A DNA stretch of 25,839 nucleotides. It comes from a virus. Location: positions 1-25,839 of the IMG/VR virus record IMGVR_UViG_3300011997_000014; one strand, given 5' to 3'. Positions 1,641 through 24,725 of the stretch are shown here, piece after piece. A program made the translations under genes and the position numbers. The notes beneath the pieces were generated by a model. It was not told the DNA's origin and made no database searches. It saw only the letters and a list, made by a program, of their open reading frames with translations. Every line of letters starts with the position of its first letter. Position 1 is the stretch's first letter.

Positions 1641-1807
1641 ATCCCGGAAAAGTCAAGGGTAATACAAGCGGCCTTCGTTTGGTGCCTGGACAGTATAGCG
1701 TGCCGAAGGCCGCCCTTGACTAGAATCCGGTCTGCTCAATGTGCAATTGGCTCAAAATTAATTGGAGAGCCAGCCTACAAAAATCCACAGGGCAGTGGTG
1801 ACAAACA
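1641..1807 (+). ncRNA. Structured 5' leader RNA, copy A (upstream of the RadC-like gene)
   Basis: P1 pairs CCGGA (1644-1648) with TCCGG (1726-1730) and AGTCAAGGG (1651-1659) with CCCTTGACT (1713-1721), leaving a small asymmetric internal loop. A variable hairpin fills the centre, with a 9-bp stem 1669-1677/1704-1712. Next come a conserved TCTGCTCAAT (1731-1740), a GAGC-containing hairpin loop (about 1764-1775), a 9-nt linker, and hairpin CCAC-AGGGCA-GTGG (1785-1798). Exactly 9 nt separate this last stem from the ATG at 1808. The same architecture recurs at 2438-2686 and 23831-24025, and in reduced form at 24677-24725. TGCTC (1733-1737) can pair with the loop bases GGGCA (1790-1794) as a pseudoknot. 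No known riboswitch or ribozyme signature was recognised. Confidence 0.8.
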
Positions 1808-2281
1808 ATGCAAACAAATTTATTTACTCCCATGCCAATGTACAATTCAACTTTGGCAGAAATTGAGATCAGTTACAAACCAAAGTACAAAGCATCAGAA
1901 CTACAAAAGGTGGTTACTTCCGCTGATGCATACTGTTGTTTAAAGGATGTTTTTCCAAGCTTGGATTACAGGGAATACTTTTACATACTTTGTCTAAATC
2001 GAAATAACAAGGTATTGGGATACTGCCAGATTTCAGCGGGTGGACTCACTGGCACAATGGCTGATGTACGAATGATTATGCAAACAGCTTTGAAATCAAA
2101 TAGCTGCTCAATTATTTTAAGTCACTGTCATCCGAGCGGAAACCTGGAACCCAGTGAAGCCGATAAAGATTTAACCAAGAAGATTCAGGAAGCTGGCAAG
2201 GTTCTCGACATTGCGGTTTTGGACCATCTGATTATTACTTCTGAATCATACTACTCTTTTACAGATGAAGGTAAAATGTAA
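1808..2281 (+). CDS. RadC-family JAB/JAMM-domain protein
   Basis: The 157-residue protein carries a complete JAMM metal-binding signature: E56 in DYREYF, H106 and H108 in SHCHPSGN, and S116/D119 in PSEAD. LDHLIIT follows, as in RadC C-terminal domains. It lacks the N-terminal helix-hairpin-helix part of chromosomal RadC, so it is the short form common on mobile elements. The family was once called a DNA repair protein, but its biochemical role remains unclear; zinc-dependent hydrolase chemistry is inferred from the motif. The ATG at 1808 is supported by the leader RNA, which ends 9 nt before it as in the other copies. An intrinsic terminator follows directly, so the gene forms a one-gene cassette (leader, gene, terminator). 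Confidence 0.85.
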   Translation: MQTNLFTPMPMYNSTLAEIEISYKPKYKASELQKVVTSADAYCCLKDVFPSLDYREYFYILCLNRNNKVLGYCQISAGGLTGTMADVRMIMQTALKSNSCSIILSHCHPSGNLEPSEADKDLTKKIQEAGKVLDIAVLDHLIITSESYYSFTDEGKM

Positions 2282-2282
2282 G

Positions 2283-2305
2283 AAGATGGCTTCGGCCATT
2301 TTTTT
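2283..2305 (+). terminator. Intrinsic terminator after the RadC-like gene
   Basis: ATGGC-TTCG-GCCAT is a stem closed by a stable UUCG-type loop and followed by seven T. The tail continues GTTCGCT (2306-2312). The same string, ATTTTTTTGTTCGCT, follows the terminator at 3069-3091. Confidence 0.9.
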
Positions 2306-2437
2306 GTTCGCTTATGAGGGATCCATAAATTTTATATTAATACCTTCTCTTCTTTTTCATTATTTTGATGATGTTCAGCCTACTACATAGAAATTCTTGT
2401 TACACTCAAATTAGTGGATAAAGTTATTGATCGCCAT

Positions 2438-2686
2438 CCGGAAAAGTCAAGGCTTTGGGTTTCGCCTATTCTGATCTACAAAAACAACACTTCGTGCTAG
2501 TTCAGCTTTTTGCCTGGTCGTACCGATCTTGTTTCGGGACCTGTCAGCACACATACGTACTCAAAGCAAAAACCAGACATTCGGCCTTGACAAGAATCCG
2601 GTTGGCTCAATGTTGATTATCCATAATTTAATTTTAACAGGCGAGCCAGAAGCCAAAATAAGACCTCAGGGCAGAGGCAAAATGTT
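2438..2686 (+). ncRNA. Structured 5' leader RNA, copy B (upstream of the coiled-coil gene)
   Basis: P1 pairs CCGGA (2438-2442) with TCCGG (2597-2601) and GTCAAGGC (2446-2453) with GCCTTGAC (2584-2591). The internal loop is AAA opposite AAGAA, as in copy C. The variable insertion between the arms is about 130 nt, the longest of the three. Downstream are GGCTC (2604-2608), hairpin GGC-GAGCCAGAA-GCC (2640-2654), a 9-nt A-rich linker, and hairpin CCTC-AGGGCA-GAGG (2664-2677). Then 9 nt lead to the ATG at 2687. TGGCTC (2603-2608) is perfectly complementary to GAGCCA (2643-2648) in the first hairpin loop. An out-of-frame ATG at 2682 lies in the 9-nt spacer. With the terminator at 2283, this leader accounts for the 405-nt gap between genes. 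Confidence 0.8.
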
Positions 2687-3061
2687 ATGGGTAAATCAAA
2701 TGTTGCAGAAAAAACAGCCACAATTGCTGAAGTAGTTGAAGTAGTAGAAGTTGCTCCAGTTTTGACCATTGTGAAAGACGAAGTCGAAGCACCGCGAAAG
2801 CTGACTCTGGATGAAAGGATTCAAAGAGTAGAAGACTTATCATTGCTGATCGACCGTTGGAAAACGTTGAATGATTCACGTCGTAAGTTGCAAACCTTCC
2901 AGATCGGAGCTGATTCTCTCAGTTCTGTGATCAGTTTGCGCGATTCAAATGGCAATGAGTTCAAAACTTCCAACTCAGCAGTGATAACCTCTGTTATCGA
3001 CGAAATGAAACGAACCCTGGATGTGAAAATCAAAGATGTTGAAGAGCAAATTAACCTTTAA
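2687..3061 (+). CDS. Hypothetical coiled-coil protein
   Basis: The 124-residue protein has a low-complexity N-terminus rich in Val/Glu (EVVEVVEVAPV, about residues 14-24). A predicted helical region follows (about 40-75), then a Ser-rich middle, and a final charged helix (VIDEMKRTLDVKIKDVEEQI, about 102-121) with heptad-like spacing. No enzymatic motif is visible. The start at 2687 is chosen because it keeps the 9-nt distance from the leader hairpin seen in the sister copies. The gene is flanked by leader RNA copy B and by a strong terminator, matching the organisation of the RadC-like gene before it. Function unknown; a structural or DNA-associated accessory role is possible. Confidence 0.7.
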   Translation: MGKSNVAEKTATIAEVVEVVEVAPVLTIVKDEVEAPRKLTLDERIQRVEDLSLLIDRWKTLNDSRRKLQTFQIGADSLSSVISLRDSNGNEFKTSNSAVITSVIDEMKRTLDVKIKDVEEQINL

Positions 3062-3068
3062 CGAAGAG

Positions 3069-3091
3069 TGGGGCTTACGCCCCATTTTTTT
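3069..3091 (+). terminator. Intrinsic terminator after the coiled-coil gene
   Basis: TGGGGC-TTAC-GCCCCA forms a 6-bp GC-rich stem followed by seven T and then GTTCGCT. That downstream string is identical to the one after the RadC-like gene. Confidence 0.92.
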
Positions 3092-3150
3092 GTTCGCTCA
3101 GGTTTGACATAGATTCTGAATTGGGAAATTAATAGTTAAAAGATTATTTA

Positions 3151-3283
3151 TACCTTTAACTTAAGTTTTGAAATGCTGTTAAGTTTGAGCCAACACCTCG
3201 CGGGCGATGGGGACAAGAACGTTGTCTAAAAGAGTATTTCAAAATTAACCCGCATAGCTCTGCAGAAATGCAGGGCTTTTTTT
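3151..3283 (+). ncRNA. Candidate small RNA with its own terminator
   Basis: A 9-bp perfect closing helix joins TTTTGAAAT (3166-3174) to ATTTCAAAA (3236-3244). Inside are a GC-rich imperfect hairpin (about 3196-3210) and hairpin GACAA-GAACG-TTGTC (3212-3226). An intrinsic terminator follows at 3256-3283. TACCTTTA at 3151-3158 resembles a -7 box, but no good -33 element was found. No convincing ORF occupies the stretch. It lies after one terminator and before the late promoter at 3326, so it would be an independent transcript. It resembles the leader RNAs weakly (GAGCCA followed by CCTC and GGGC), which may be chance. Confidence 0.45.
3256..3283 (+). terminator. Intrinsic terminator of the candidate small RNA
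   Basis: AGCTCTGCA pairs with TGCAGGGCT (one G-U pair) across a GAAA tetraloop, followed by seven T (3277-3283). No protein-coding gene ends just upstream, which supports a non-coding transcript ending here. Confidence 0.88.
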
Positions 3284-3325
3284 ATTGAATGACCTATTGC
3301 CTGAGCTTATCAAACCAGTCGAAAC

Positions 3326-3361
3326 TGTCCTTTCTCCCCATAATCCTGCAACTTACATTTG
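3326..3361 (+). promoter_or_regulatory. Late promoter 1 (portal operon)
   Basis: TGTCCTTTC (3326-3334), a 19-nt spacer, and TACATTTG (3354-3361), a perfect Bacteroidota -7 box. It is one of six copies in this window with identical spacing. The predicted transcript starts near 3368, about 28 nt before the ATG at 3396. Confidence 0.85.
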
Positions 3362-3395
3362 ATTCATCAATCATCATTAATCAATCAAAAATCAA

Positions 3396-3686
3396 ATGGT
3401 TCAACCAAAAGTACAATCAATACGCCGAAACCTGGTCCTCAAAGAACTGGAAATTAGGGAAACTCCGCAAGGGAAACAAATCGTCTTCTCCATCAAGTTT
3501 GTAAAGAAGGATGGAGAGCTGGTTTTTATTCCACGTGCAGTGGCTACCGGACTAAAAATGAACATGAAAGAAAACCGGATGCGCGGAGTTCTTCCTGTGG
3601 ATGAAAACGGAAACGCCTGCGGTCATGTCACTCCTGTTAGTATTGATTCATTGATCGAGTATAATGGTATAAAGGTGAAAATGTAA
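3396..3686 (+). CDS. Small hypothetical protein, first gene of the portal operon
   Basis: The 96-residue protein is basic at its N-terminus (VQPKVQSIRRNLVLKELEIRETPQGKQ) and otherwise strand-rich, suggesting a small beta fold. No motif was recognised. It starts about 28 nt after the predicted start of late promoter 1, behind an AATCAATCAAAAAT-type leader similar to the one before the gene at 6880. Its TAA (3684-3686) is followed by one base and then the portal ATG, so the two are tightly coupled. A role in head or packaging assembly is inferred only from position. Confidence 0.75.
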   Translation: MVQPKVQSIRRNLVLKELEIRETPQGKQIVFSIKFVKKDGELVFIPRAVATGLKMNMKENRMRGVLPVDENGNACGHVTPVSIDSLIEYNGIKVKM

Positions 3687-3687
3687 G

Positions 3688-5049
3688 ATGGCAGATATTA
3701 TTTTTAATGCTCAAGGTGTGCCTCTTCTTGCTTCCGGACGAAGCTATCTGGGTGCCACAACCGGGGTTCCGGCTGCTAGGCCGAACTCAGCGAATCCAAA
3801 ACCTTCTAAGATCGATTTGGATCGAACAACAATCGGCAATTACGAAATTGCCAGCTGGGGATCAAACAACGATTGGCCGTCAAAAGCGGAAGAGATCATC
3901 AACAAGGTAGGAACGCTGAACACTGGCTTGCGCTTTACCCGCAATTTTACCTTGGGCCAAGGTATTTATCCCTGTATTGTTACCGGCTATGATGATAAAG
4001 GCAATGAAATTCTGAAGGCTCCCAAAGATCCGTTACTAACCTTGTTTGCCAACAGTCGTGTTATGCGACGGTATATGGAAAAAGCAATCCGTGATTACCT
4101 GAAGCTCGGGGTTGCTTTCGTGGAGTTCCTGTTCAATGCTGATGGAAGCCAGATTGTTGGGGTAAATGCCATTAATTCAAAATACTGCCGGTTGACCGTT
4201 GCAAATAAAGATGGAGTGGTTGAGAATTGCATCGTGTCCGGAAGGTTTCCTGATACTCCAGGCGAAGGCGAATACACGGTTTATGATGTTCTGGATGAAT
4301 ATGATCCTTATGCTGACCTGGAACGTCGCCGTTGGGCTGGTAAAACAAACGGAAAATCGCTGGTGATGTGTATCCGCGATTCCTGGAGCAATAACGAATA
4401 CTATTCTGCGCCTCTTTGGTTTGCTGCCTATCTGGCCGGATGGATCGATATTGCCAGTATGGTTCCTGCATTCCTGAAAAAAGCCTATACCAATCAAATA
4501 ACCTGGAAATGGCATATCCAAATCCCTTATGCATTCTGGGATCGTCAGTTCCCTGCCAATGAGTTTGCAACCATCGACCTGCGAAAGAAAGCCATTGAGG
4601 ATTATATGGATGATGTGGAAACCAATCTTTGCGGGGTGGATAACGCTGATAAGCCAATCTTTACTTTCTTCGAGATTAATCCAATGAATGGCAAGGCAGA
4701 GGAGAAATGGATTATCGAACCGCTAAACAACAAGCTCAACAGCGAACAGAACCTGGTTACTTCAGCTGCAGCAAACTCTGAAATCATGTTTGCAATCATG
4801 GTTAATCCAAATGTGATGGGAGCGGGGATGCCAGGTGGTGCTTATGCCGGAAACTCAGGAGGGAGCAATATTAGGGAAGCTTACTTGATCAACGTAGCTA
4901 ATGCCTGGCTTGACCGACAAACCATGCTTGATCCTATCGAAATTGTACACCGATACAATGGTGGCGATGAAAATATAGAATGGCGATTTAGAAATACCGT
5001 TCTAACGACCCTCGATTCTGGTGCCGGAACAACTAAAACCTTATCGTAA
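3688..5049 (+). CDS. Phage portal protein
   Basis: The 453-residue protein has the layout of a tailed-phage portal of Bacteroidota phages. An N-terminal part with WGSNNDWPSKAEEII and GTLNTGLRFTRNFTLGQGI (about 54-94) is followed by a mixed alpha/beta body. A C-terminal section has NSEIMFAIMVNPNVMGAG and GGSNIREAYLINVANAWLDR, typical of the helical stem and crown. The portal forms the dodecameric ring at one capsid vertex, through which DNA is packaged and ejected. Terminase and major capsid genes, usually next to a portal, are not seen nearby. The ORF's last base is the first base of the next gene's ATG. The identification comes from overall sequence character and context, without a search. 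Confidence 0.75.
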   Translation: MADIIFNAQGVPLLASGRSYLGATTGVPAARPNSANPKPSKIDLDRTTIGNYEIASWGSNNDWPSKAEEIINKVGTLNTGLRFTRNFTLGQGIYPCIVTGYDDKGNEILKAPKDPLLTLFANSRVMRRYMEKAIRDYLKLGVAFVEFLFNADGSQIVGVNAINSKYCRLTVANKDGVVENCIVSGRFPDTPGEGEYTVYDVLDEYDPYADLERRRWAGKTNGKSLVMCIRDSWSNNEYYSAPLWFAAYLAGWIDIASMVPAFLKKAYTNQITWKWHIQIPYAFWDRQFPANEFATIDLRKKAIEDYMDDVETNLCGVDNADKPIFTFFEINPMNGKAEEKWIIEPLNNKLNSEQNLVTSAAANSEIMFAIMVNPNVMGAGMPGGAYAGNSGGSNIREAYLINVANAWLDRQTMLDPIEIVHRYNGGDENIEWRFRNTVLTTLDSGAGTTKTLS

Positions 5050-6056
5050 TGCTATTCAAAACCATCGAAGAAATCAAACAATTCCTGGCAGTTGGTGCAG
5101 GGACCGACTTTAACAGGTTAAAACCCCATATCCAGAATGCAGAAACTGCTTACTTGAGACCAATGCTTGGTATAGGATTATTCAAGGAATTACAGGATTT
5201 CTATGATAGTCCGTCAGAAACTCCAATGATAGGACAAAATATACTATTCGGCGAGCTTTTGTCACTGGTACAACGGACACTGATTCACCTGACCTATTGG
5301 TCCGGGTTCCAGGTTCTGAACGCCACTATCTCCGATGGTGGTTTCAAACGAACCGAAACCGAAAAGGTCAAGAGCCTATTCAAGTACCAGGAAGTTGAAT
5401 TGAAAGAGTATTTTAAAACAACCGGCTTCAATGGATTGGATGAAATCCTTTTTTACCTTGAGATGGAAATCAAGAAGTCTGAAGCAGAATCAGTCAATTT
5501 CAAATCATTTGTAGATTCAGATGCCTGGACAATCCTGAAATCATCATTCATTCCTGATACCAATACTTTCAACAGCAATATTTTCATTAATCACAGCCGC
5601 CTTACTTTCCTTCGGCTAAAATCTCCCATGCAGTTGGTGGAAGATTTGGACATCAAACCGATACTTGGAGAAACTATTTTTAAGGAAATAAAAACAGAAT
5701 TGGCAAAGATTGATCCGGCAGCAAAAGTGACAGTAATCCTTCCCTATATTCAAAAAGCGATAGCCTATCTGGCGACGGCGCTTTTAATGGAAGAAAGCGG
5801 AGCGGATCTTACGGAGAAAGGCTTATACTTCGAAAGTACTGACGCCTATAATGACCTAACAACAAACAAACAGCCTGCAGAAAGTGATCGGATTAACTTT
5901 CTGGCAAAACGCAACAAAGGGATTGGGCAAAATTATCTGGAGCAGCTAAAAAGTTACCTTAATGCCAATGCCACAGACTGGCCAACTTACTGCGGACAAA
6001 CAGGTAATTTACTGCGACGGACCAATACTGACAAAAAATCTTTCTGGGCATGTTAA
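5049..6056 (+). CDS. DUF6712-like phage protein, putative head-tail connector
   Basis: The 335-residue, mostly helical protein begins with a head-tail-adaptor-like pattern (FKTIEEIKQFLAVGAGTDFNRLKPHIQNAETAYLRP). A second, related-looking half starts around residue 150 (FVDSDAWTILKSSFI, later LRLKSPMQLVEDLDIKPILGETIFKEIKTEL). This suggests an internal duplication. It resembles the DUF6712 family of Bacteroidota phages as I remember it. The start codon overlaps the portal stop (TAATG), indicating translational coupling. The position directly after the portal fits a connector bridging portal and tail. The C-terminal 20 residues are basic and low in complexity. Confidence 0.6.
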   Translation: MLFKTIEEIKQFLAVGAGTDFNRLKPHIQNAETAYLRPMLGIGLFKELQDFYDSPSETPMIGQNILFGELLSLVQRTLIHLTYWSGFQVLNATISDGGFKRTETEKVKSLFKYQEVELKEYFKTTGFNGLDEILFYLEMEIKKSEAESVNFKSFVDSDAWTILKSSFIPDTNTFNSNIFINHSRLTFLRLKSPMQLVEDLDIKPILGETIFKEIKTELAKIDPAAKVTVILPYIQKAIAYLATALLMEESGADLTEKGLYFESTDAYNDLTTNKQPAESDRINFLAKRNKGIGQNYLEQLKSYLNANATDWPTYCGQTGNLLRRTNTDKKSFWAC

Positions 6057-8047: not shown

Positions 8048-11000
8048 ATGGCAACTTCCTACAACAGGCGAATCAACCTTTACATCAACGGTCAGCAGGT
8101 CACCAATGACATTGCCAGTATCCGTGCCGAGATGAACAAGACCATCAACACCCAGGCACGAATGACTATCGGCTCCAAAGAGTATGTAGCCGAAGCATCC
8201 AAAATCAAACAGCTAAAAGCAATCATTGATCAGCACCGGGCTGATATTGGCCAGATTGAAAGCAAATGGTCCATGCGCAACATCGGAAGGATGTTTAATG
8301 ATTATTTCTCGATGGTCACCGCTTTTCTGGCTTCTTCTGTGGCTCTGGTGATGGGGGTAAAACAGATCATTCAAACATATAACGACTTTGAAGAGCGTCT
8401 GGATAACCTTTCAGCTTTAACCGGTTTGGCCGGTAAAGACCTGGAATGGCTGGGTGAAACAGCTAAGAAGATGTCAACAGACACCCTGGAAGGAGGAATA
8501 CGTGTCACCCAATCGGCTCAGCAAATTGTTGATGCATTTACCAAAGTAGGTTCGGCAAGACCTGAACTTCTAAAAAATAAAGAGGCCCTGGTAAATGTTA
8601 CCAAGGAAGCCATCATACTGGCCAATGCGGCCAAGATCGAACTGCAACCTGCCATTTCGGGCCTTACAATGGTAATGAACCAGTATAATGTATCTGCAGA
8701 CCAGGCCCGTCGGATCATTAATGTTCTGGGAGCAGGATCCAAGGAAGGTGCAGGGGAAATTCCATACCTGACCATCGGCTTTGAAAAAGCAGGAACCACC
8801 GCTTCCATGGCCGGACTCTCCATTGAAACACTTACTGCAACACTGGAAACCCTTGCACCCCGGTTTTCACAACCAGAAATTGCCGGTCGGGGACTACGTG
8901 GAATGTTACTCCATCTCCAACTTGGGGCTGATGATACCAACCCTGCCATCGTTGGTATGGGAACAGCCCTGGAAAACCTGGCTAAAAAAGTACTTACCCC
9001 ACAGGAACAACTTAAAATGTTTGGCCTTGAAAACATCAATGTTGCCAATACCCTGATTCAGAATGTGAAAGAATTCAGGCAATATGAGAAGGCAGTAACC
9101 GGAACTAATGTGGCCATCGAACAGGCAATCATTAATACCGGTAACAATAACGCCAAACTTGCCCAGGCCAAAAACCGGCTTAATGTGATGAGTATTGAAT
9201 TGGGTGAAAAACTGGCTCCGGCACTCCAGGTAAGTACCAGTGGATTGACTTATTTTATTAAGGCTTTAACAATCTCCATTGATTTTATATCCCGGCACAA
9301 AGTTTTGATACTATCGCTCATTTATTCCCTTACGGCATACACCATTGCAGCCAAGCTGGCAACAATGTGGGAAGCGAGGAAAAATAAAGAAACACTCTTA
9401 GGTATTGTTGCAGGGTGGCTTCAATCAGCTGCCTTTACTGCACAGTTTGCTGCAATATCCCTGTATAATGCAGGTGTTGCTCTGCTCTCAGGGAACCTGG
9501 CCGTGGCTTCGATTCAGTTCAGGGCCTTCAGCGCTGCCATGGCTGCAAACCCAATAGGGCTGTTTGTCGGATTAGTCGTTGCAGCAGGTACTGCCCTGTA
9601 CTTTTATTCCGGACAGATGACAGCTGCACAAAAAACGCAGTTAATGATGAATGAACTGAATCTGGAAGCTAAAAAAAGGATCGTTGAAGAAAAACTAGCC
9701 ATCGAAGATTTACTGGCCACTGCCCGAAACAAGAAACTTTCAGATGCAGAGCGCCTTCAAGCCATTGCAGAAATGCATAAACTTTCGCCTGCTACCCTTG
9801 GTAATATACAGTTGGAAAATGTCTACACCAAAGAGGCTACCGATTCCATTAATGTTTATATCAAGGCATTGGAAAGAAAAGCATTTGTTCAGGCAGCATC
9901 AGAGAAACTGATCGATATCGAAAAAGAACTTCTTGATCTCTCATCTGGCAAAGGTGCCGATATAACCTTCTGGCAAGCTTTGGGCAACAGCCTGCTTTCC
10001 TTTGGAAATGCTGCTGTTGCCCAGGGACGAAATGCCAATACAGCCTTTTCAAATATGACTGAGCAGCAGAAAGCCTTGTTACTGCAGAAGGAGAAACTGC
10101 TTTCGGTAACCAGGAAACAAAAGGAAGAAGATTCCAAATCCAGAGTGGACGGAGGCGCTGGTACTGGTGTTATTCTTGACCTTGTCCGGGCAAAAGAGCT
10201 GGAGCTGGAAACGGCCAACAAAATGCCGAGATCGACTGAAGCTGAGATAACCGCCCGTAATAAATCGATTGAATCTATCCAGAAGGAAATTGATCGGCTC
10301 AATGAACTTGGAACAAAAAAAGAAGGAAAAGCGGATGACAAACAGGATTCAGAAGCTGAAAAGAAGGAAAAAGAAAGGCTGAAAACGCTCATTGATAATG
10401 CCACAGCGCAGCATGAGGCAAAAATGGCACTAATCAAGAAAAGCCATTTAGAAACAAAAGGATCAGAAGATCAGTTCAAAGCCGACATGCTGATTGAAGA
10501 GATCAATTTTCAGCAGGCTAAAATGGCTATCTATGAGAAGGGAAGCAAAGAATATGAAGCGGCTTATTCCCAGTCTTTGCAATTGCAGGTTGATGCGCAA
10601 AAAACAGTCAAAGACCTGTTGGAAAAGGCAGATAAAGAACTGGCCGATGCCAAGGTGGAAAACCTTGCAGAGGGCATCAAAAAGCAGAAGGCCATTGAGG
10701 AAAACCGGTGGGCAGATGAACTTGCCGGACTAAAAAAACAACTGCTGGATAAAACGGATCTGAAAGAGCAGGAAGTAGCCCTTAATGATACCATTAATAA
10801 AACCATCCAGGAAAAGACATCCGCTCACCTGAAAATAATGTCTGACCTGGAAAAGGCAGAAAATGAGCAACGGATCATGGATGCAGCACTTATTCGTCAG
10901 GCGAAAGCCACCACGGACGAGGAAGAGTTTGCAGCAAAGCGTGATATGGCCCAGGCAGAATATCAGCAGGATTTGATTGATGCCAATGATAATGCCGCTA

Positions 11001-11788
11001 AAATTGCTGTGGCTGAGCGCAGTCTATCGGATAAACTTGTTCAAATCAAACTGGATGAACTGGCCAAGAAACAGGAAATCGGTGATGCTGTTTTCTCAGC
11101 CGCAAATTCATTGTTTGGTGGTCTGGCTGAGCTGGCTGGAAAAGAAACAGCCATGGGCAAAGCAATGTTCCTTTTTCAGCAAGCAGCTGCAATAGGCCAG
11201 GTCATCTTTAATACCGCCATTGCCAATGCTAAGGCAGTAGCCACATTTCCACTAACACTAGGGATGCCCTGGGTGGCCATTAATACCGCTTCTGCCATTG
11301 GCAGCATTGCTTCCATTGTTGCCCAGTCTATCGCTAATTTCTCACAACCTAAAGGTTATGCCAGTGGTGGATATACAGGCGCAGGAGGAAAGAATGAACC
11401 TGCCGGAATAGTCCACAAAGGAGAATATGTCATCCCTGCCGATATGCTTCGCAATCCGCAGATCGCCATGATGGTGGCCGGATTGGAGAACATGAGGCAA
11501 ACCAGATACACCATTACTCCGGGAGCATACCAAACAAGTAAATCCAAAGGTTTTTCTTCGGGTGGTTATACCACTGATGCAAATTCTATTTCCCATTCAG
11601 CACTAAACAGCTTGCTTGGAAAACTGTCCGGCATTAATCCAACTGGCCAAAACCAAAATGAGATTTTATCAGCCTTAGCTTTGGCTGTGTCTGATTTGAA
11701 AAATTGGAATCCATCTATTTCTATCGAAGCTTATGAGCGCAAACGTGAACAATACCAGAAAACTACAAACAGCGGATTAAAAAGATAG
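8048..11788 (+). CDS. Phage tail tape measure protein (TP901-like core)
   Basis: At 1246 residues it is the longest gene in the window. The N-terminal third (about 110-410) has the TP901-type core, with helices rich in Ala, Gly and Thr (NDFEERLDNLSALTGL, then STDTLEGGIRVTQSAQQIVDAF, and AGRGLRGMLLHLQLG). Hydrophobic segments lie at about 87-107, 418-438, 501-521 and 1035-1096. A long Lys/Glu/Ala coiled coil spans roughly 530-1010. The C-terminus has the usual Gly-rich GYASGGYTGAGGK followed by GIVHKGEYVIPADM (about 1103-1133). Tape measure proteins fill the tail lumen, set tail length and help genome entry through their membrane segments. The length suggests a long tail. With no sheath seen, a siphovirus-like tail is the simplest reading. 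It has its own late promoter. Confidence 0.93.
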   Translation: MATSYNRRINLYINGQQVTNDIASIRAEMNKTINTQARMTIGSKEYVAEASKIKQLKAIIDQHRADIGQIESKWSMRNIGRMFNDYFSMVTAFLASSVALVMGVKQIIQTYNDFEERLDNLSALTGLAGKDLEWLGETAKKMSTDTLEGGIRVTQSAQQIVDAFTKVGSARPELLKNKEALVNVTKEAIILANAAKIELQPAISGLTMVMNQYNVSADQARRIINVLGAGSKEGAGEIPYLTIGFEKAGTTASMAGLSIETLTATLETLAPRFSQPEIAGRGLRGMLLHLQLGADDTNPAIVGMGTALENLAKKVLTPQEQLKMFGLENINVANTLIQNVKEFRQYEKAVTGTNVAIEQAIINTGNNNAKLAQAKNRLNVMSIELGEKLAPALQVSTSGLTYFIKALTISIDFISRHKVLILSLIYSLTAYTIAAKLATMWEARKNKETLLGIVAGWLQSAAFTAQFAAISLYNAGVALLSGNLAVASIQFRAFSAAMAANPIGLFVGLVVAAGTALYFYSGQMTAAQKTQLMMNELNLEAKKRIVEEKLAIEDLLATARNKKLSDAERLQAIAEMHKLSPATLGNIQLENVYTKEATDSINVYIKALERKAFVQAASEKLIDIEKELLDLSSGKGADITFWQALGNSLLSFGNAAVAQGRNANTAFSNMTEQQKALLLQKEKLLSVTRKQKEEDSKSRVDGGAGTGVILDLVRAKELELETANKMPRSTEAEITARNKSIESIQKEIDRLNELGTKKEGKADDKQDSEAEKKEKERLKTLIDNATAQHEAKMALIKKSHLETKGSEDQFKADMLIEEINFQQAKMAIYEKGSKEYEAAYSQSLQLQVDAQKTVKDLLEKADKELADAKVENLAEGIKKQKAIEENRWADELAGLKKQLLDKTDLKEQEVALNDTINKTIQEKTSAHLKIMSDLEKAENEQRIMDAALIRQAKATTDEEEFAAKRDMAQAEYQQDLIDANDNAAKIAVAERSLSDKLVQIKLDELAKKQEIGDAVFSAANSLFGGLAELAGKETAMGKAMFLFQQAAAIGQVIFNTAIANAKAVATFPLTLGMPWVAINTASAIGSIASIVAQSIANFSQPKGYASGGYTGAGGKNEPAGIVHKGEYVIPADMLRNPQIAMMVAGLENMRQTRYTITPGAYQTSKSKGFSSGGYTTDANSISHSALNSLLGKLSGINPTGQNQNEILSALALAVSDLKNWNPSISIEAYERKREQYQKTTNSGLKR

Positions 11789-14898: not shown

Positions 14899-16845
14899 AT
14901 GGCTTCAAGAAAACAGCTTGCTCAACTTGACATCTTAGCGGTAACAAACCTTAATGATCCGGGGTCCGGATTCGTTGGTTTCTCCGCTAAGATGGATGGT
15001 TTGTATCAGAAAATAGGTGCTACAGCAGATACAAGACTATTAACAGCGGTTGATATCGGTGTTAATGTGGCTGCCTATAACCATTCGCATCCTTATCTCT
15101 TGTTATCAGGAGGGGTAATGAGTAACGCTAATGTGGTAACCAATCTTAATGCTGATCTTCTGGACGGACAGCACGGTAGTTATTATGCTTCGGCTGCTCA
15201 TAACCATTCAGGAGTTTATCAGCCTCTGGATGCTGATCTCACGGCTATTGCCGCGCTGGCCGGTACATCCGGATTGTTGAAGAAAACAGCAACCGATACA
15301 TGGGCATTAGATACCACAACATATGTGTCTGGCACTCCATGGACAGGCATGGGTTATGTAGCCGGTACACCATGGACAGGAATGGGATATGTAACCGGAA
15401 CACCATGGACAGGGATGGGATTCTTAACCGCGAATCAGGCTCATACTTTGGATTCTCATTCGAATGTAACAATTACTTCAAATGCGGCTGGAGAGATCCT
15501 GAAATGGAACGGATCAACATGGATAAACAACACTCTTGCTGAAGCCGGGATCCAACCAGCAGGAAGTTATGTAACGGGTACTCCGTGGACCGGGATGGGA
15601 TATGTGACCGGTACGCCGTGGACCGGAATGGGATACTTAACCGCGAATCAGGCTCATACTTTGGATTCTCATTCGAACGTAACGATTACTTCAAATGCGG
15701 CTGGAGAGATTCTGAAATGGAACGGATCAGCATGGATTAACAACACTCTTGCTGAAGCTGGAATTCAGCCTGCGGGAAGTTATGTAACGGGTACTCCGTG
15801 GACGGGAATGGGATATGTGACCGGTACTCCGTGGACGGGAATGGGATATATAACAGGAGGGCCGTATCAGCCACTTGCTACAAATCTGACTTCATTAACG
15901 AATCTGACCTATGCTTCAACTTCGTTTGTGAAAATGACAGCAGCTGGTACATTCACTCTGGATACAACAGCTTATGTGACTGGTACGCCGTGGACAGGCA
16001 TGGGATATGTGACCGGTACTCCATGGACAGGCATGGGATATGTAACGGGAGGCCCGTATCAGCCACTTGCTACAAATCTGACTTCATTAACGAATCTGGC
16101 CTATGCTTCATCTTCGTTTGTAAAAATGACAGCAGCCGGTACGTTCACGCTCGATACTGCAACTTATGTAACCGGTACACCGTGGACTGGTATGGGTTAT
16201 GTGACGGGTACTCCGTGGACAGCAATGGGATATGTGACCGGGACACCATGGACTGGTATGGGTTATGTAACCGGTACACCATGGACAGGGTATGGATATA
16301 CAACAACACCGTTTCCATCAGGCAATGGTATTCCAATAGTTGCAAATGGTAATTCATGGGGAACAACAATTCCAACAACAACATTCGCCTTGCGTACCGG
16401 AGAGGGATCTATCGAATTTTCATCAGCGGGATTTCGAATTCCAACTAGTATAGGCGGCACAGACTGGATTCTAAAAAACAATGGAGCTGGAGGATTTCAG
16501 ATTATTACATGGAATGGTTCATCAGCTAGTACTTATCTAACCTTAGATGCAAGTGGAGTTACTGCCACCAACTTCGTCCTTTCTTCAGACATCAGACTTA
16601 AACAGAATATAAATGCGATCAACTCAGAGAATATAAGCAAGATCAATTTTGTAGAGTTTAGCATGAAGGCTGATTTATCGGATAGGAAACGATATGGAGT
16701 TATTGCACAAGAGGTAGAGAAAGTCGCACCAGAGTTAGTTTATACTAACGACAACGGCGTGAAGTCTGTAGCTTACATTGACTTATTAATAGCCAAAATT
16801 TCAGATTTAGAAAAACGACTTAAAAAATGCGAAAATGCGAAATAA
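14899..16845 (+). CDS. Tail fibre with GTPWTGMGY repeats and S74 intramolecular chaperone
   Basis: The 648-residue protein has an N-terminal fibre module (KQLAQLDILAVTNLNDPGSGF, then NADLLDGQHGSYYASAAHNHSG). A central array of 13 copies of an 11-residue unit (consensus VTGTPWTGMGY, about residues 142-467) is interspersed with two duplicated blocks. The C-terminus is a Peptidase_S74 chaperone domain, with the sequence SDIRLK at S563-K568 and KRYGVIAQEVEKVAPELV (about 595-612). In known cases S74 domains trimerise the fibre and then cut themselves off before the Ser. The last helix (LIAKISDLEKRLKK) is a trimerising coiled coil. It overlaps the next gene by 11 nt. Confidence 0.9.
   Translation: MASRKQLAQLDILAVTNLNDPGSGFVGFSAKMDGLYQKIGATADTRLLTAVDIGVNVAAYNHSHPYLLLSGGVMSNANVVTNLNADLLDGQHGSYYASAAHNHSGVYQPLDADLTAIAALAGTSGLLKKTATDTWALDTTTYVSGTPWTGMGYVAGTPWTGMGYVTGTPWTGMGFLTANQAHTLDSHSNVTITSNAAGEILKWNGSTWINNTLAEAGIQPAGSYVTGTPWTGMGYVTGTPWTGMGYLTANQAHTLDSHSNVTITSNAAGEILKWNGSAWINNTLAEAGIQPAGSYVTGTPWTGMGYVTGTPWTGMGYITGGPYQPLATNLTSLTNLTYASTSFVKMTAAGTFTLDTTAYVTGTPWTGMGYVTGTPWTGMGYVTGGPYQPLATNLTSLTNLAYASSSFVKMTAAGTFTLDTATYVTGTPWTGMGYVTGTPWTAMGYVTGTPWTGMGYVTGTPWTGYGYTTTPFPSGNGIPIVANGNSWGTTIPTTTFALRTGEGSIEFSSAGFRIPTSIGGTDWILKNNGAGGFQIITWNGSSASTYLTLDASGVTATNFVLSSDIRLKQNINAINSENISKINFVEFSMKADLSDRKRYGVIAQEVEKVAPELVYTNDNGVKSVAYIDLLIAKISDLEKRLKKCENAK
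15322..16302 (+). repeat. 33-bp tandem repeat array and duplicated blocks inside the fibre gene
   Basis: Thirteen 33-bp units encode (V)TGTPWTGMGY-like peptides, in runs of 3, 2, 2, 2 and 4. Between them, one block (from 15421) is repeated with an offset of 213 bp (from 15634). Another (from about 15856) is repeated with an offset of about 192 bp (from about 16048). Many units differ at third codon positions but keep the protein, implying selection on the peptide. Length variation by recombination is likely. Confidence 0.9.
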
Positions 16846-20128: not shown

Positions 20129-20138
20129 TTCAATCAAA

Positions 20139-20190: not shown

Positions 20191-20223
20191 GGATAGTTTA
20201 GTAATCCAAATAAAAAAACAAAG

Positions 20224-20709: not shown

Positions 20710-20717
20710 ATAAAAAG

Positions 20718-20742
20718 ACCGGCACTCTTTATGGGTGCCGGT
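20718..20742 (+). promoter_or_regulatory. Intercistronic hairpin, weak terminator or attenuator
   Basis: ACCGGCACTC and GGGTGCCGGT form a 10-bp stem (G-U at the top) with a 5-nt loop. The downstream sequence is TCTGTT, a poor U-tract, so it may stop only part of the transcripts. The hairpin would bury the ATG at 20731, which argues against that codon as the start of the next gene. Confidence 0.6.
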
Positions 20743-20781
20743 TCTGTTAAAATCAAATTTCAACTATTTACACTTAAAATA

Positions 20782-22683
20782 ATGCTTTCCCTTACCCTTA
20801 AAGGCAATATCATACCCCTAACCGTGGACTTTTCCATGCAACTGACATGGAAAAGTCCGGTGTGTGCTTTTGATAAGATACCAGGAAGCTTTGGTCTTGG
20901 TATTACCTTTCCTATTAATGAATACACCCGTGCTTTATTTGGCTTTGCGGAGCGCTTTGCCAAATACCGAAGCAACAGTAATCAGAAATTTCCAGGCTTT
21001 GAAATCCGTTTTGGTGGAGTACTGCTCATGGCCGGTACGCTAACTATCACCAACGCTTCAGCTACCAGCTACGAAGCCTCACTGATTGATCAGGTCGGGG
21101 TACTGGGTGAACTGGAGCAGGAACGTGATCTGCTGGATATCCCGGCATTCTCCCAGGAAATCAATTGGGTGGGCAGTCCATATTACAATCCGGATCAGCA
21201 TTGTTATTGTGCTTTCCCAATTGTCAATCATGGTTTTTTTACCGATAAAGGATTAATCATCAAGCGCACTGTTTGGGATAATATACCCGGTAAGGGATTA
21301 CAGGCAACGGGTGAAACTTATGACACGCAGGTGATGAGTTACCTGTTTAATAAGACAACTGGTTGTAAGATCAATCAGCTGTTTCTGGGAACTTACATCG
21401 AGATGGAAGAATCCCAGATAGACTTACAGGTTTTGACAGAGAAACACAACACTTATGACTCGGGTAAAGTAACTGTTGTTACTCCTTTCCTTTTCCTGAA
21501 CTATGTGATTAAGGAGGCTCTGAAAGATACCAACTTTCACATCGGAACAAATTTTCTGAATGAAGATGCCCAACTTCGGAACCTTTGTATATACAACAAT
21601 TACGATATCACCATGACCCAGTACCTGCAAACCGGAGAATTGTTGTATCAGGATCAGGTTGTCGGAATCAGTGAATCAGGAAATATAATACTGGTCAATA
21701 TGCCTCATTCAGTAGGGGTGAAACTGTACAGCTATTATCGTTCTTATGAATATGTCCTGACACCTAAGAACCACCTTCCAAAGATGAAGGTTGGCGATTT
21801 GATCTTGTCCACCCAAAACCTGACCAATGTTTGTTTTCACTTCTTGCCTGATAATACCGTTAATATCCTTTCCAGGGAAAAGCTATTAACCGGTAATGCA
21901 ATTGATCTGGATGAGTATTTCTTAGGTGTATGGGAAATCGGAGAGCAAAAAAGTGTAGCCTTAAAGTTTACCAGGGAACATGACTCCAATGATCTGGTAT
22001 TTTCTGAACGTTTTAATGATCTGAGTGACCGAAGAGCTGATATCAAGCAGCCGGTTGCCGATTGGCCGGGAATATGGGCAATAGCCAGTCCTGTCGAAGG
22101 TGAAATCCGGCTCATGAGTTCAAACAATACTTTCTATCAGTATAAATGGATTACCCAGGAGAAAGTTAATGGATCGACCATGGCCTCAGATACCACCGAT
22201 GTGTTAGGCTGGGAGGAAATCTCGATCGGCCTTCAAAACGGCTGGCATGAGTTTGGCAGAGAAGAAATAGAAGAGATCAAATCATCATGGTCAAGTTGCT
22301 ATGGTAACGATCAGCTTACACTGGTTAACCAGCAGGGAAACATGAACACCTGGAAGGCAAAAACGCAGGCCTTTTCACCACGTCTGATGATTAATAAGGC
22401 TAACAATTCCGGTGGAGTCCAAAATGCAAATTTCTCCTTCGAATATGAAAAAGCAGATACCGGGATTCTCCCTCTTTACTGGAAAAACTGGAACCAATTC
22501 TGGTCGAACCGCCTTGCAGTAAGTGGAGAATTTGACATGCCGGTTAATGTGCTTCGGTATGTGATCTACAACATTTGTAGCAAGTACCGGACCCGTGAGG
22601 GTGAATTCATGATTGAAGAAATGAGCTGCGAACTATTCATTGACCGCATTGGAACTACACAGGTAAAAGGGTTTAAGGTATAG
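20782..22683 (+). CDS. Putative baseplate / tail hub protein
   Basis: Starting at the ATG at 20782, the protein has 633 residues (MLSLTLKGNIIPLTVDFSMQLTWKSP). This start follows an A-rich leader, while the upstream in-frame ATG at 20731 sits inside a hairpin. The N-terminal part (FEIRFGGVLLMAGTLTITNASATSYEASLIDQVGVLGE, about 75-115) resembles the first domain of hub-type baseplate proteins of Bacteroidota phages, a beta barrel that sets a local coordinate frame. The remainder is strand-rich with many Trp and Asn, and the C-terminus forms a small alpha/beta domain. A tail-tip hub or receptor-facing baseplate role is inferred from size, fold character and position. It is read from late promoter 4. 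Confidence 0.6.
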   Translation: MLSLTLKGNIIPLTVDFSMQLTWKSPVCAFDKIPGSFGLGITFPINEYTRALFGFAERFAKYRSNSNQKFPGFEIRFGGVLLMAGTLTITNASATSYEASLIDQVGVLGELEQERDLLDIPAFSQEINWVGSPYYNPDQHCYCAFPIVNHGFFTDKGLIIKRTVWDNIPGKGLQATGETYDTQVMSYLFNKTTGCKINQLFLGTYIEMEESQIDLQVLTEKHNTYDSGKVTVVTPFLFLNYVIKEALKDTNFHIGTNFLNEDAQLRNLCIYNNYDITMTQYLQTGELLYQDQVVGISESGNIILVNMPHSVGVKLYSYYRSYEYVLTPKNHLPKMKVGDLILSTQNLTNVCFHFLPDNTVNILSREKLLTGNAIDLDEYFLGVWEIGEQKSVALKFTREHDSNDLVFSERFNDLSDRRADIKQPVADWPGIWAIASPVEGEIRLMSSNNTFYQYKWITQEKVNGSTMASDTTDVLGWEEISIGLQNGWHEFGREEIEEIKSSWSSCYGNDQLTLVNQQGNMNTWKAKTQAFSPRLMINKANNSGGVQNANFSFEYEKADTGILPLYWKNWNQFWSNRLAVSGEFDMPVNVLRYVIYNICSKYRTREGEFMIEEMSCELFIDRIGTTQVKGFKV

Positions 22684-22689
22684 TAAACC

Positions 22690-22725
22690 TGTCCTTTGGA
22701 GGAGTGGCCTATTCCCCTAAGTTTG
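22690..22725 (+). promoter_or_regulatory. Late promoter 5 (lysis cassette)
   Basis: TGTCCTTTG (22690-22698), 19-nt spacer, TAAGTTTG (22718-22725). Here the -33 part is the canonical TTTG, which ties the phage motif to the ordinary Bacteroidota promoter. A start near 22732 excludes the in-frame GTG at 22704 and leaves an almost leaderless ATG at 22740. Confidence 0.85.
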
Positions 22726-22739
22726 AAATCAAAAACACT

Positions 22740-22940
22740 ATGAAAGAAACTCCCCAGGCAGGTGCCTTTGGCACAATCGCAACCTTTCTGTTTGGCTCAA
22801 TGCTTCACCTGGATAAAGCCATGCAGGATGAAATAACCTTTTGGCTGCAAACTGCCGCCTTTCTGATTTCATTAATCGTTGGTATACTGACCATTTTTAT
22901 TTCAATCCGCAAAATCAGGCAAAAAGATGCAAAGAATTAA
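22740..22940 (+). CDS. Putative holin
   Basis: The 66-residue protein MKETPQAGAFGTIATFLFGSMLHLDKAMQDEITFWLQTAAFLISLIVGILTIFISIRKIRQKDAKN has a weakly hydrophobic first segment (GAFGTIATFLFGSMLHL). A clear membrane helix follows (FWLQTAAFLISLIVGILTIFI), then a basic tail. That is the build of a small class II-type holin. Late promoter 5 favours the ATG at 22740 over an upstream GTG at 22704. It overlaps the peptidase gene by 14 nt, and the trio 22740-23660 is a standard lysis module. Holins form membrane lesions that release the endolysin. Sequence alone does not prove the role. Confidence 0.68.
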   Translation: MKETPQAGAFGTIATFLFGSMLHLDKAMQDEITFWLQTAAFLISLIVGILTIFISIRKIRQKDAKN

Positions 22941-23349
22941 ACTTTCGACCAACCTCTATTTGGATGAATATATTCCCAAAGAGCTGTATTTGAAATTTGA
23001 GTCAACCCCTTATATCCTGATTGGACTATTGGACAAACGGCTGATTACAGCTGATCAGAAGCTCCGGGATCAATTTGGCCCAGTCACGATCAATAACTGG
23101 TGGGATGGGGGAAGCCGGAACTGGTCAGGAATCAGAACTCCGGAAACAACTTTGTTCAGCCTCACTTCTCAACATGCGCATGGAAGGGCATCCGACAAAC
23201 TATTCACGGTGTCAGCAGCCGAAGTCAGGCAATATATCCGGGAGCATTGGCGCGAACTAGGTATCACTTGCATCGAGGACAATGTAAGCTGGGCGCATTC
23301 GGATGTAAGAAACTGGATTGGTAATGAATTATTAATCGTGCAGCCATGA
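22927..23349 (+). CDS. M15-family peptidase, putative endolysin
   Basis: The 140-residue protein contains the M15A-type zinc site: H83 and D90 in SQHAHGRASD, and H124 in SWAHSD. A likely catalytic E117 lies in CIEDN, and WWDGGSRNWSGIRTP (about 58-72) is the conserved entry loop. Members cleave D-Ala-containing or other cross-bridge peptide bonds in peptidoglycan. No signal peptide is present, which fits holin-dependent release. The start lies inside the holin candidate gene (14-nt overlap) and the stop overlaps the following ATG (ATGA). It is the lytic enzyme of the lysis cassette. Confidence 0.9.
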   Translation: MQRIKLSTNLYLDEYIPKELYLKFESTPYILIGLLDKRLITADQKLRDQFGPVTINNWWDGGSRNWSGIRTPETTLFSLTSQHAHGRASDKLFTVSAAEVRQYIREHWRELGITCIEDNVSWAHSDVRNWIGNELLIVQP

Positions 23350-23660
23350 AAATATTCTTTCTAAATATCTGGAAATATATCACCTTCCTTTTTGCAGGAA
23401 TCATTGCAGGAATGGTTGCAGCCATTAAGTTGATCGAAAAGCCATCGGTTGTAAATGTTGCAGCTGACACATTTGTGGCAGAGCAAACCCAGCAAATCGG
23501 AAAACTAAAACAAAGAGGTGATGGAAATTTGCAGGATATTTCCCTGCCTACTCAGATCCCAACCCGAAAAGAAAAGCGACTTGCACGTAGAGCTGCAAGA
23601 CGTGAGCTGCGTCAAGAAAGGAGAAATCAGCAGGAGGAAGATAATCTTAAAAGTCCATAA
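23346..23660 (+). CDS. Membrane-anchored basic protein, spanin- or holin-like
   Basis: The 104-residue protein has an N-terminal membrane helix (IWKYITFLFAGIIAGMVAAIKLI, about 8-30). A short hydrophilic middle follows (EQTQQIGKLKQRGDGN), then a strongly basic helix (RKEKRLARRAARRELRQERRNQQEE, about 74-98). It starts 4 nt inside the M15 peptidase gene and ends before an intrinsic terminator, so it is the third gene of the lysis cassette. An N-in anchor with a charged extension resembles an inner-membrane spanin, but no outer-membrane partner is seen. It could also be an accessory holin. Confidence 0.62.
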   Translation: MKIFFLNIWKYITFLFAGIIAGMVAAIKLIEKPSVVNVAADTFVAEQTQQIGKLKQRGDGNLQDISLPTQIPTRKEKRLARRAARRELRQERRNQQEEDNLKSP

Positions 23661-23710
23661 TGTAATTTGTTCCTTATCATTTGATTGATTGAATTATTGA
23701 TTGATTTTGA

Positions 23711-23743
23711 ACCCGAAACCTACCAGTAGCTTTCGGGTTTTTT
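23711..23743 (+). terminator. Intrinsic terminator after the lysis cassette
   Basis: ACCCGAAA (23711-23718) pairs with TTTCGGGT (23731-23738), with a 12-nt loop and six T. It closes the transcript from late promoter 5. The 365-nt gap to the next gene holds this terminator and leader RNA copy C. Confidence 0.88.
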
Positions 23744-23830
23744 CATTTCTTTCCTTTTGGTTTTCAGGTTTAACAGATGACATAGAGAGCTTTTCTTCTA
23801 TCAATTTGATCCCAAAGTTATTTGCGCATT

Positions 23831-24025
23831 CCGGAAAAGTCAAGGGAGCTTTTCTCCTTCCTGAAGGGAAATGAAAAGCTTGCTCTGCACTCGGTCACTT
23901 TCTCGCTTCACTTCAAAACTGACATTCGCCCATTGACAAGAATCCGGTCTGCTCAATCTGGTAGGGTTCAAATTAACAGGCGAGCCAGAAGCCAATAAAA
24001 ATCTGTAGGGCAACAGTGAAACAAA
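23831..24025 (+). ncRNA. Structured 5' leader RNA, copy C (upstream of the DUF6573-like gene)
   Basis: P1 pairs CCGGA (23831-23835) with TCCGG (23943-23947), and GTCAA-GGG (23839-23846) with CCC-a-TTGAC (23929-23937, one bulged A). The AAGAA side of the internal loop is identical to copy B. The insertion contains its own hairpin, AGCTTTTC/GAAAAGCT (23847-23854/23873-23880). TCTGCTCAAT follows, then hairpin GGC-GAGCCAGAA-GCC (23979-23993), a 9-nt linker, and CTGT-AGGGCA-ACAG (24003-24016). The ATG comes 9 nt later at 24026. More than 20 kb from copies A and B, it keeps loop sequences and spacing while the final stem bases change in a compensatory way. Confidence 0.8.
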
Positions 24026-24466
24026 ATGAGTGATTTTTCAGATTGGGAAGTAATTGACACTTACAGCACCAAACAGGCTGTTGAAGATGGATTCTTAGTC
24101 CGTGTAGATCAAAAGATTTCAAAAGAAGCAGGTATCAAGTATCCGGTTTACCTGACACGTGCGGTTTGGGATAAATACGTGGAACTGCCTGAAGGTTTTG
24201 AAGGAGTTCAGGATCTGGACGGGAGGCTTTGGGATGTACTTTTCATGTTCATGTTTGCCGCCAGGGCATGTCCACAGTCAACATTAATGTATAAGCTGAA
24301 TGTGGTGCTTGCTGACAAAGGAGATTGGGAACAAAACGAGAAACTGGATCCTGACCTGGATGGTAACCGGAATATGCGCTTGGTGACTCTCAAATCGGTC
24401 ATCCAGGCACAGGACTTTGACGATCCGTCACCAGCCATTTTTATCATGAAACCAAATGAGGATTAA
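24026..24466 (+). CDS. DUF6573-like protein
   Basis: The 146-residue protein shows the pattern of the DUF6573 family found on plasmids and phages of Bacteroidota and Firmicutes: DGFLVRVDQKISKEAGIKYPVYLTRAVWDKYVELP, followed by GRLWDVLFMFMFAARACP and a strand-rich C-terminus ending in FIMKPNED. The family's biochemical role is unknown to me; it usually travels with mobile elements. The start is fixed by leader RNA copy C (9 nt spacing). It lies 2 nt before the next ATG and leads a four-gene set that ends at the terminator at 25361. Confidence 0.75.
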   Translation: MSDFSDWEVIDTYSTKQAVEDGFLVRVDQKISKEAGIKYPVYLTRAVWDKYVELPEGFEGVQDLDGRLWDVLFMFMFAARACPQSTLMYKLNVVLADKGDWEQNEKLDPDLDGNRNMRLVTLKSVIQAQDFDDPSPAIFIMKPNED

Positions 24467-24468
24467 TT

Positions 24469-24669
24469 ATGGAGACAGTCGAATTAACATTATTAGAATA
24501 CCAAAGGCTGATGGATGCCCTACTGTGGGTCATGGGTCCATACCTGGAATCTGATGATCCACTGAGCGAGCATCCACACCTTTTCGAGCTTGGCGAATGT
24601 TACAACGAGTTGTACCACAAAATGCCCAAAGATCTGGAACACAATTATCCTGAACTTATCTTTTACTAA
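24469..24669 (+). CDS. Small acidic hypothetical protein
   Basis: The 66-residue acidic helical protein (METVELTLLEYQRLMDALLWVMG..., ending YHKMPKDLEHNYPELIFY) has no recognised motif. It begins 2 nt after the DUF6573-like gene's stop and is probably co-translated with it. Its 3' end lies just upstream of the reduced leader copy D. Small acidic proteins beside DUF6573-type genes on mobile elements are sometimes anti-defence factors, but nothing here shows that. Confidence 0.6.
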   Translation: METVELTLLEYQRLMDALLWVMGPYLESDDPLSEHPHLFELGECYNELYHKMPKDLEHNYPELIFY

Positions 24670-24676
24670 TCAAACC

Positions 24677-24725
24677 GGGTGAGCTTGATACCCAAATAAG
24701 ACCCAAAGGCATGGGCATTTTTACT
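24677..24725 (+). ncRNA. Reduced leader RNA, copy D (3' half only)
   Basis: The two-hairpin 3' module is present without the long P1. GGGT-GAGCTTGAT-ACCC (24677-24693) keeps the 9-nt loop beginning with GAGC but changes the stem. An 8-nt A-rich linker and CCCA-AAGGCA-TGGG (24702-24715) follow, with 10 nt to the ATG at 24726. Each changed stem base is matched by its partner. No GCTC partner is obvious upstream; TGCC at 24623-24626 could pair with GGCA in the second loop, but that may be chance. Confidence 0.6.

Follow-up and report, generated by a model that had tools for sequence, protein, structure and literature searches.

A putative single-stranded DNA hairpin promoter in series with a two-hairpin RNA module in Bacteroidota mobile elements and prophages

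Frpo/ssi promoters are known to express leading-region genes from the incoming single-stranded DNA (ssDNA) and to be switched off after its conversion to duplex, and the ssDNA promoters described in these studies are of the sigma-70 consensus type (PMC9849209, PMC11541004). Bacteroidota are not mentioned in the treatment of Frpo-type promoters in PMC11541004, and among the papers surveyed the titles and abstracts contain nothing relevantly joining Frpo with this phylum. Here we analyze a recurrent element in a stretch of 25,839 nucleotides (nt), hereafter the window, that forms the virus record IMGVR_UViG_3300011997_000014. The window corresponds to positions 168153-193991 of contig C52 in a 5.0-Mb genome (G000) and is a tailed prophage, with genes for a tape measure protein (8048-11788) and an endolysin (22927-23349). 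The element consists of a long imperfect hairpin followed by two small hairpins directly before a start codon. Like the Frpo/ssi promoters of the F and ColIb-P9 plasmids, the long hairpin is an imperfect stem-loop that would rebuild -35/-10 type boxes on the transferred strand, and it lies ahead of anti-restriction and establishment genes of a putative leading region, with several copies per element on one strand. It differs from them in carrying Bacteroidota -33/-7 boxes, with the -7 box in a preformed bubble between helices, in leading into a dedicated RNA module, and in occurring also in tailed prophages. The searches, in which Frpo itself was never the query, revealed no relation to it in sequence. 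The hairpin would be a Bacteroidota version of the known ssDNA-promoter mechanism.

The explanation we favor, with a probability of slightly below 60%, is that two modules act in series, a hairpin promoter and then an RNA element that stands before individual genes. The hairpin would become active once the minus strand, which serves as template for the gene on the right, is single-stranded and folded. Its 3' arm would provide a sigma-ABfr promoter with the -33 TTG in duplex and the -7 element TAnnTTTG in the preformed bubble; on the folded strand the -33 element and the spacer would be double-stranded, and the first T of the -7 element would form the last stem pair with the rest open. RNA polymerase would then transcribe the 5' continuation of the folded strand and probably start about 12 nt after the segment GCTCAAT, so that the 5' untranslated region would consist of little besides the RNA module. 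On a duplex the promoter would face away from the gene, and conversion to duplex should turn the gene off; the presumed role is in early expression after entry. The RNA module may be a translation-initiation element, acting either as an enhancer or as the operator of an RNA-binding protein. The ssDNA promoter is, we strongly infer, the best explanation of the patterns below, though an unproven one. If true, the ssDNA-promoter mechanism, by which conjugative plasmids produce anti-restriction proteins while their DNA is still single-stranded, would extend to a second, phylum-specific promoter type with sigma-ABfr boxes, and the preformed -7 bubble would offer a structural model, open to testing, for the opening of a folded single strand by RNA polymerase.

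The large hairpin and its promoter words

In copy 1 of the window, the large hairpin (1604-1770, minus strand) is formed by outer arms at 1604-1623 and 1749-1769 and inner arms at 1632-1659 and 1713-1740, which enclose a loop at 1660-1712. On the minus strand the putative -33 element TTGAC (1652-1656) lies in the paired stem, and the putative -7 element TAAATTCG (1625-1632), which matches TAnnTT(T/C)(G/A), lies in the unpaired bubble. Copy 2 (2400-2638, minus strand) has outer arms TTACACTCAAATTAGTGGATA and TATCCATAATTTAATTTTAAC, a -7 box at 2419-2426 and a -33 element at 2446-2450, and copy 3 (23799-23979, minus strand) has outer arms TATCAATTTGATCCC and GGGTTCAAATTAACAG, the -7 box TAACTTTG at 23813-23820 and a -33 element at 23839-23843. 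The loops of the three copies are about 57, 134 and 87 nt long, in agreement with the variable insertion reported in an earlier note on this DNA, which had described one structured RNA leader in four copies. The order of parts that it gave for three long copies and one reduced copy is found in the sequence, with all parts in place. The CCGGA/TCCGG and GTCAAGG/CCTTGAC helices it listed are present as well, and so are GCTCAAT, the hairpin loop containing GAGC and the A-rich linker; the large hairpin extends further outward on both sides, as shown by the pairing of 1604-1623 with 1749-1769 in copy 1.

About 530 genomes were sampled, including 140 of the window's family and a 395-genome sample of the phylum. 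We built two covariance models, R1 for the long form and R2 for the final 55 nt only, and the searches found further copies with supporting covariation. Promoter statistics were computed on 68 non-redundant hairpin copies, which are interrelated. The inner arms CCGGA...GTCAAGG / CCTTGAC...TCCGG are near-invariant with occasional mismatches, and the outer arms pair with class-specific sequences (CTCTCC..AATTTTGCC with GGCTCAAAATT..GGAGAG, GTTACACTCAAATTGCGGG with CCCGTAATTTATTTTTAAC, and ATCAATTTGATCCC with GGGTTCAAATTAACAG). It is evident that the outer arms coevolve, because among the 68 copies true pairs reach -10.24 kcal/mol versus -7.11 kcal/mol for permuted pairs and -7.89 kcal/mol for the best of 5000 permutations. 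Between the outer and the inner helix lies a bubble, the left side of which reads TAnnTTTG on the minus strand, and its opposite side is not conserved. TAnnTTTG is the -7 box of the Bacteroidota sigma-ABfr consensus (PMC7366714). Read on the minus strand, the promoter words of the left arm have the form TTG-N20/21-TAnnTTTG. When 65 non-redundant copies were anchored on the inner arms alone, blind to the box, TAnnTT(T/C)(G/A) was present in 62 of them at an offset of 12-14 from the core (1.8 expected from shuffles). The strict form TAnnTTTG occurs on the minus strand in 57/68 copies and on the plus strand in none, and TTG (or TTT) precedes the -7 box by 20-22 nt in all 68. A full -33/-7 promoter (TTG/T-N18-22-TAnnTT(T/C)(G/A)) is carried by the minus strand in 67/68 copies, and on the plus strand only 2/68 have a forward promoter, whether in the element or upstream of it.

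The strand that folds can be read from wobble pairs, since a folding minus strand tolerates G.T on the minus strand, which appears as A.C on the plus strand. There are 55 minus-type and 9 plus-type wobbles in the outer helix, compared with 33.5 (standard deviation, sd, 5.0) and 9.4 (sd 2.7) in an arm-swapped control, and 11 and 3, respectively, in the inner helix. This asymmetry indicates that folding takes place on the minus strand, the template of the downstream genes; together with the coevolving outer arms it underlies the assignment of copy 1, whose minus-strand DNA fold has z = -4.13, with 0 of 200 shuffles as good. Strong copies within one cluster share one strand.

Two further features of the hairpins were observed. 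An inverted segment, GTTCAGTTTT...AAAACTGACATTCG, recurs inside long loops (2446-2591 in the window, and in L006, L008, L050 and others) and is kept before different genes; other copies manage with a loop of 28-30 nt. A second hairpin class, CGGAACGGTAAAGGGG...CCCCGTTGACCTGATCCG (L266-L272, L274-L276 and L128), shows G.G and A.G mismatches within its stem; TTGAC is retained in the right arm and replaced by TTTAC in the promoter arm, and at least some of its copies stand before ArdC genes.

The two-hairpin RNA module

The module is about 55 nt long and ends 8-10 nt before the ATG. R2 yielded 149 hits in 42 loci, of which 147 score at least 42.9 bits and the next 31 bits, and ATG follows immediately at the module end in 143 of the 149. 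Matches were counted from 42 bits upward, because outside the family the many hits of 15-24 bits are noise; two matches were dropped, L157 (31 bits), which lies within a ketosynthase-like gene, and L284:9827 (29.9 bits). Hairpin A has a stem of 3-4 base pairs (GGC/GCC or GGGU/ACCC) and the loop GNGCCAGAU, and is followed by an A-rich linker. Hairpin B consists of four base pairs of free sequence that close the loop ARGGCA, with a fifth pair beyond a bulge of one base.

In the window, the modules of copies 1-4 lie on the plus strand. In copy 1 (1759-1807, R2 45.7 bits), hairpin B is CCAC(1785-1788)-AGGGCA-GTGG(1795-1798) plus the pair A1783-U1799; in copy 2 (2635-2686, 72.0 bits), CCTC(2664-2667)-AGGGCA-GAGG(2674-2677) plus G2662-C2678; and in copy 3 (23974-24025, 70.6 bits), CTGT(24003-24006)-AGGGCA-ACAG(24013-24016) plus A24001-U24017. 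Copy 4 (24673-24725, 58.3 bits) has no promoter hairpin and is operon-internal, beginning 3 nt past the preceding stop codon; its hairpin A is GGGT(24677-24680)/ACCC(24690-24693), and its hairpin B is CCCA(24702-24705)-AAGGCA-TGGG(24712-24715) plus G24700-C24716. The last hairpin therefore pairs in all four copies despite the differing bases, as the earlier note had pointed out, although its four-pair stem overlooked the fifth pair. The spacing of exactly 9 nt to the ATG and the loop AGGGCA hold for copies 1-3, and copy 4 has 10 nt and AAGGCA. GCTCAAT is not a free segment; it supplies the 3' strand of another helix (ATTGA..GC / GC.TCAAT). Nor are there only four copies, since the genome holds 10 modules at E <= 1e-9.

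Across the 142 distinct rows of an alignment, pairing is kept in 98.7% of cells over the whole module and in 99.6% over hairpin B, where 5/5 pairs have changed on both sides; the fifth pair is G-C in 76 rows, A-U in 63 and G-U in 2. The rows were fitted to R2, which was itself built from some of them, and this tilts the alignment somewhat toward structure; the two-sided changes in the hairpin-B pairs do not stem from the fitting. The covariation score is 0.489 versus 0.171 (sd 0.009) in shuffled alignments (0/500) and at most 0.093 in slid controls, and the first 30 sequences give the same picture. Selection on the structure of the last hairpin, which the earlier note had claimed from four copies, is thus supported. 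The case for RNA structure is comparative only, because the folding of single modules does not differ significantly from that of shuffled sequences (z about -0.3 to 0.15). At the sequence level, the two-hairpin module can be regarded as an established structured RNA and, judged by the Rfam comparison, as a new motif that belongs to no known family: no match reached the gathering threshold across the window, and at E up to 5 over 1540-2800 the four sub-threshold matches include none on the hairpins of the elements.

The GCC of loop A could kiss the GGC of loop B, and this complementarity is near-invariant. Loop A variants GCTT/GCCT, which end in U, occur with loop B AAGGCA in 8/8 rows, versus 29/116 for GCCA; as the rows are related, this co-occurrence is only suggestive of a kissing contact. 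About one-fifth of the modules (L120 9123, L126 1399, L274 13012 and others) have an extra variable hairpin inside hairpin A, between CCAGA and UGCC. A likeness of the GUGCCAG of hairpin A to the 530-loop region of 16S rRNA was set aside because about half of the copies have GAGCCAG, and exact matches to CCGGAAAAGTCAAGG in tRNA-like regions (L001 and L003), in numerous unrelated viral contigs and on two contigs of cyanobacteria were attributed to chance.

The module stands before individual genes, including operon-internal ones, and is separable from the large hairpin. Modules with a large hairpin lie at a median of 152 nt from the previous open reading frame (ORF) on the same strand, and modules without one at a median of 3 nt from the previous stop codon. 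This difference suggests that the large hairpin marks the starts of transcription units. Conversely, some viral contigs (L013, L019, L045 and L047) have hairpins without the short module.

Two known RNAs resemble the module. The guanidine-II (mini-ykkC) riboswitch has two small hairpins near the start codon, with free stems and conserved loops that may kiss, and the module shares this two-hairpin architecture close to the start codon; its loops and linker are different, however, and it has no Rfam match. A metabolite sensor is also unlikely because the module precedes many unrelated mobile-element genes, operon-internal ones included. The MS2 coat hairpin, a phage translational operator, is similar in having a short stem of free sequence and a conserved loop beside the start codon, but the module occurs before many genes of one element. 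It is located where the ribosome normally wants unstructured RNA, in a phylum without Shine-Dalgarno initiation.

Conjugative context and competing explanations

R1 copies were found in 66 of the 140 genomes of the window's family, and the 395-genome sample of the phylum contains none besides those of the window's own genome. Named carriers are almost all Prolixibacteraceae metagenome-assembled genomes (MAGs) or unclassified Bacteroidota MAGs, and from these names we take the window's family to be Prolixibacteraceae. None of 72,556 plasmids and 50,697 phages matched the hairpin and module of copy 1 in a BLASTN search. Of 12 genomes tested, 9 contain a relaxase (PF03432) and the conjugative-transposon TraG protein Bac_Flav_CT_G, typically 3-40 kilobases (kb) from the clusters. 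All five clusters in the complete genome G001 are within 30 kb of a relaxase (87/50000 circular shifts), and in five elements a cluster lies directly 5' of the relaxase on the same strand. In L120 the order on one strand is the cluster, a CHC2-type primase and a MobC-like gene (both recognized by eye) and the relaxase, which places the genes toward the usual position of oriT, the leading region being deduced here from gene order. ArdC and methylases, which are among the downstream genes, are typical anti-restriction or leading-region genes. Both the downstream genes and the relaxases in their vicinity would be in keeping with the leading regions of conjugative elements. We would only tentatively go further, at somewhat less than even odds, and suppose a Bacteroidota entry-expression program, common to conjugative elements and tailed phages, in which Frpo-like promoters with a pre-melted -7 box are combined with an RNA that controls translation gene by gene.

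Several observations weigh against the ssDNA promoter. TTTAC replaces TTGAC at -33 in 14/68 copies (about 21%). The excess of minus-type wobbles in the outer helix is about 4 sd over the swapped control, that of the inner helix comes from few events, and the copies are related; only 42/68 copies have a hairpin that is more stable on the minus strand than on the plus strand (p = 0.012). ArdC-type clusters are 15-30 kb from relaxases, and the order there is less telling. The genome of the window has neither a PF03432 relaxase nor a Bac_Flav_CT_G protein, and the window's own copies sit in a tailed prophage, a double-stranded DNA (dsDNA) phage genome without an obvious single-stranded stage. For such copies, either phages captured the units or the promoter is also active on supercoiled duplex. 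The latter leads to an alternative in which the hairpin is a cruciform-extruding promoter on supercoiled dsDNA, used for immediate early expression in phages and conjugative elements alike, as in the early promoters of phage N4. It would account for the copies in tailed prophages and near relaxases, with the same promoter words and strand; however, long imperfect arms and loops of 28-160 nt are unfavorable for extrusion, and entry as a single strand better explains the gene context in conjugative elements. We consider it quite improbable.

The entire element could also be one plus-strand RNA leader, riboswitch-like or protein-binding, with a promoter further upstream, which was in essence the earlier note's view. 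The long hairpin can form on the plus strand too, long copies have further structure in the loop, and hairpins A and B are certainly RNA. Such a leader gives no role to the minus-strand TAnnTTTG conserved in the bubble, and, taken together with the minus-type wobbles, the near lack of a forward promoter and the absence of the hairpin at operon-internal copies, this leaves the 170-250 nt element as a single RNA without support. Compensatory change of the kind expected for such a leader is confirmed for the two-hairpin 3' part, the CCGGA/GTCAAGG arms of the large hairpin being nearly invariant and sometimes mismatched instead of covarying; what stands is a structured RNA of two hairpins before the ATG. 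We regard the single leader as unlikely.

In duplex DNA the promoter words do face left, and minus-type wobbles would equally suit a minus-strand RNA; one might therefore propose an ordinary leftward dsDNA promoter that serves a divergent gene or makes an antisense RNA, with the inverted repeat as operator or antisense-RNA structure. The downstream genes would then have no promoter. A same-strand ORF ends within 400 nt to the left in 68/87 copies, and a minus-strand ORF begins within 200 nt to the left in only 10/87, at least some of these being spurious antisense ORFs, on which ground a divergent-gene promoter was rejected. A leftward promoter is in our view very unlikely. Even less credible, to the point of being hardly worth entertaining, is that the hairpins are attC-like recombination sites of mobile single-gene cassettes. 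The imperfect stem with a variable loop, the presence in places of one gene per unit and the shuffled gene order among elements recall integron attC sites, which lie 3' of cassette genes, have an RYYYAAC core and are recognized by a partner integrase. The hairpins lie instead 5' of genes at the starts of transcription units and are absent between operon genes, the promoter words would be unexplained, and no core motif is seen in the arms by eye, although neither a formal motif search nor a search for an integrase was carried out.

Downstream genes and other genes of the carriers

The hairpin promoter candidate has 126 unique copies. The downstream families are DUF6573 (23), RadC/JAB (22), MGKSN (18), DnaJ-like (15), small cysteine-rich (12), 65-amino-acid (aa) (12), ArdC (12), 135-aa (8) and N6 DNA methylase (3) proteins, as well as SymE and DUF4326, and the gene order after the modules varies among elements. 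If the hairpin and module mark entry genes, they could guide a search for anti-defense genes. The genes downstream of copies 1-4 in the window, all on the plus strand, encode a RadC/JAB-domain protein (1808-2281; Pfam PF04002, 2.1e-38), a member of the recurrent MGKSNVAEK... family (2687-3061), a DUF6573 protein (24026-24466; Pfam PF20213, 2.8e-17) and a 72-aa protein of another recurrent family (24726-24944), at whose ATG the module ends. The second and the fourth have no assigned function. The MGKSN family, with 18 proteins among the commonest downstream genes, has no Pfam match for the window's protein and matches solely the uncharacterized phrog_19224; it is a candidate regulator or anti-defense protein.

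The same hairpin/module units, together with RadC, DnaJ-like, MGKSN and N6-methylase genes, are also seen on the viral-class contigs L029, L018, L037, L050 and L065, and in L029 phage-type genes as in the window lie beside the copies. Just left of the window on contig C52 (L137:11925-14708), the prophage encodes, between hairpin copies, a protein of 927 aa in which a likeness to a restriction or BREX/type IIG methyltransferase was noticed by eye. Within the window, a putative tail-fiber protein (14899-16845) contains many near-identical GTPWTGMGY repeats, and its C-terminal part resembles, by eye, an intramolecular chaperone domain.

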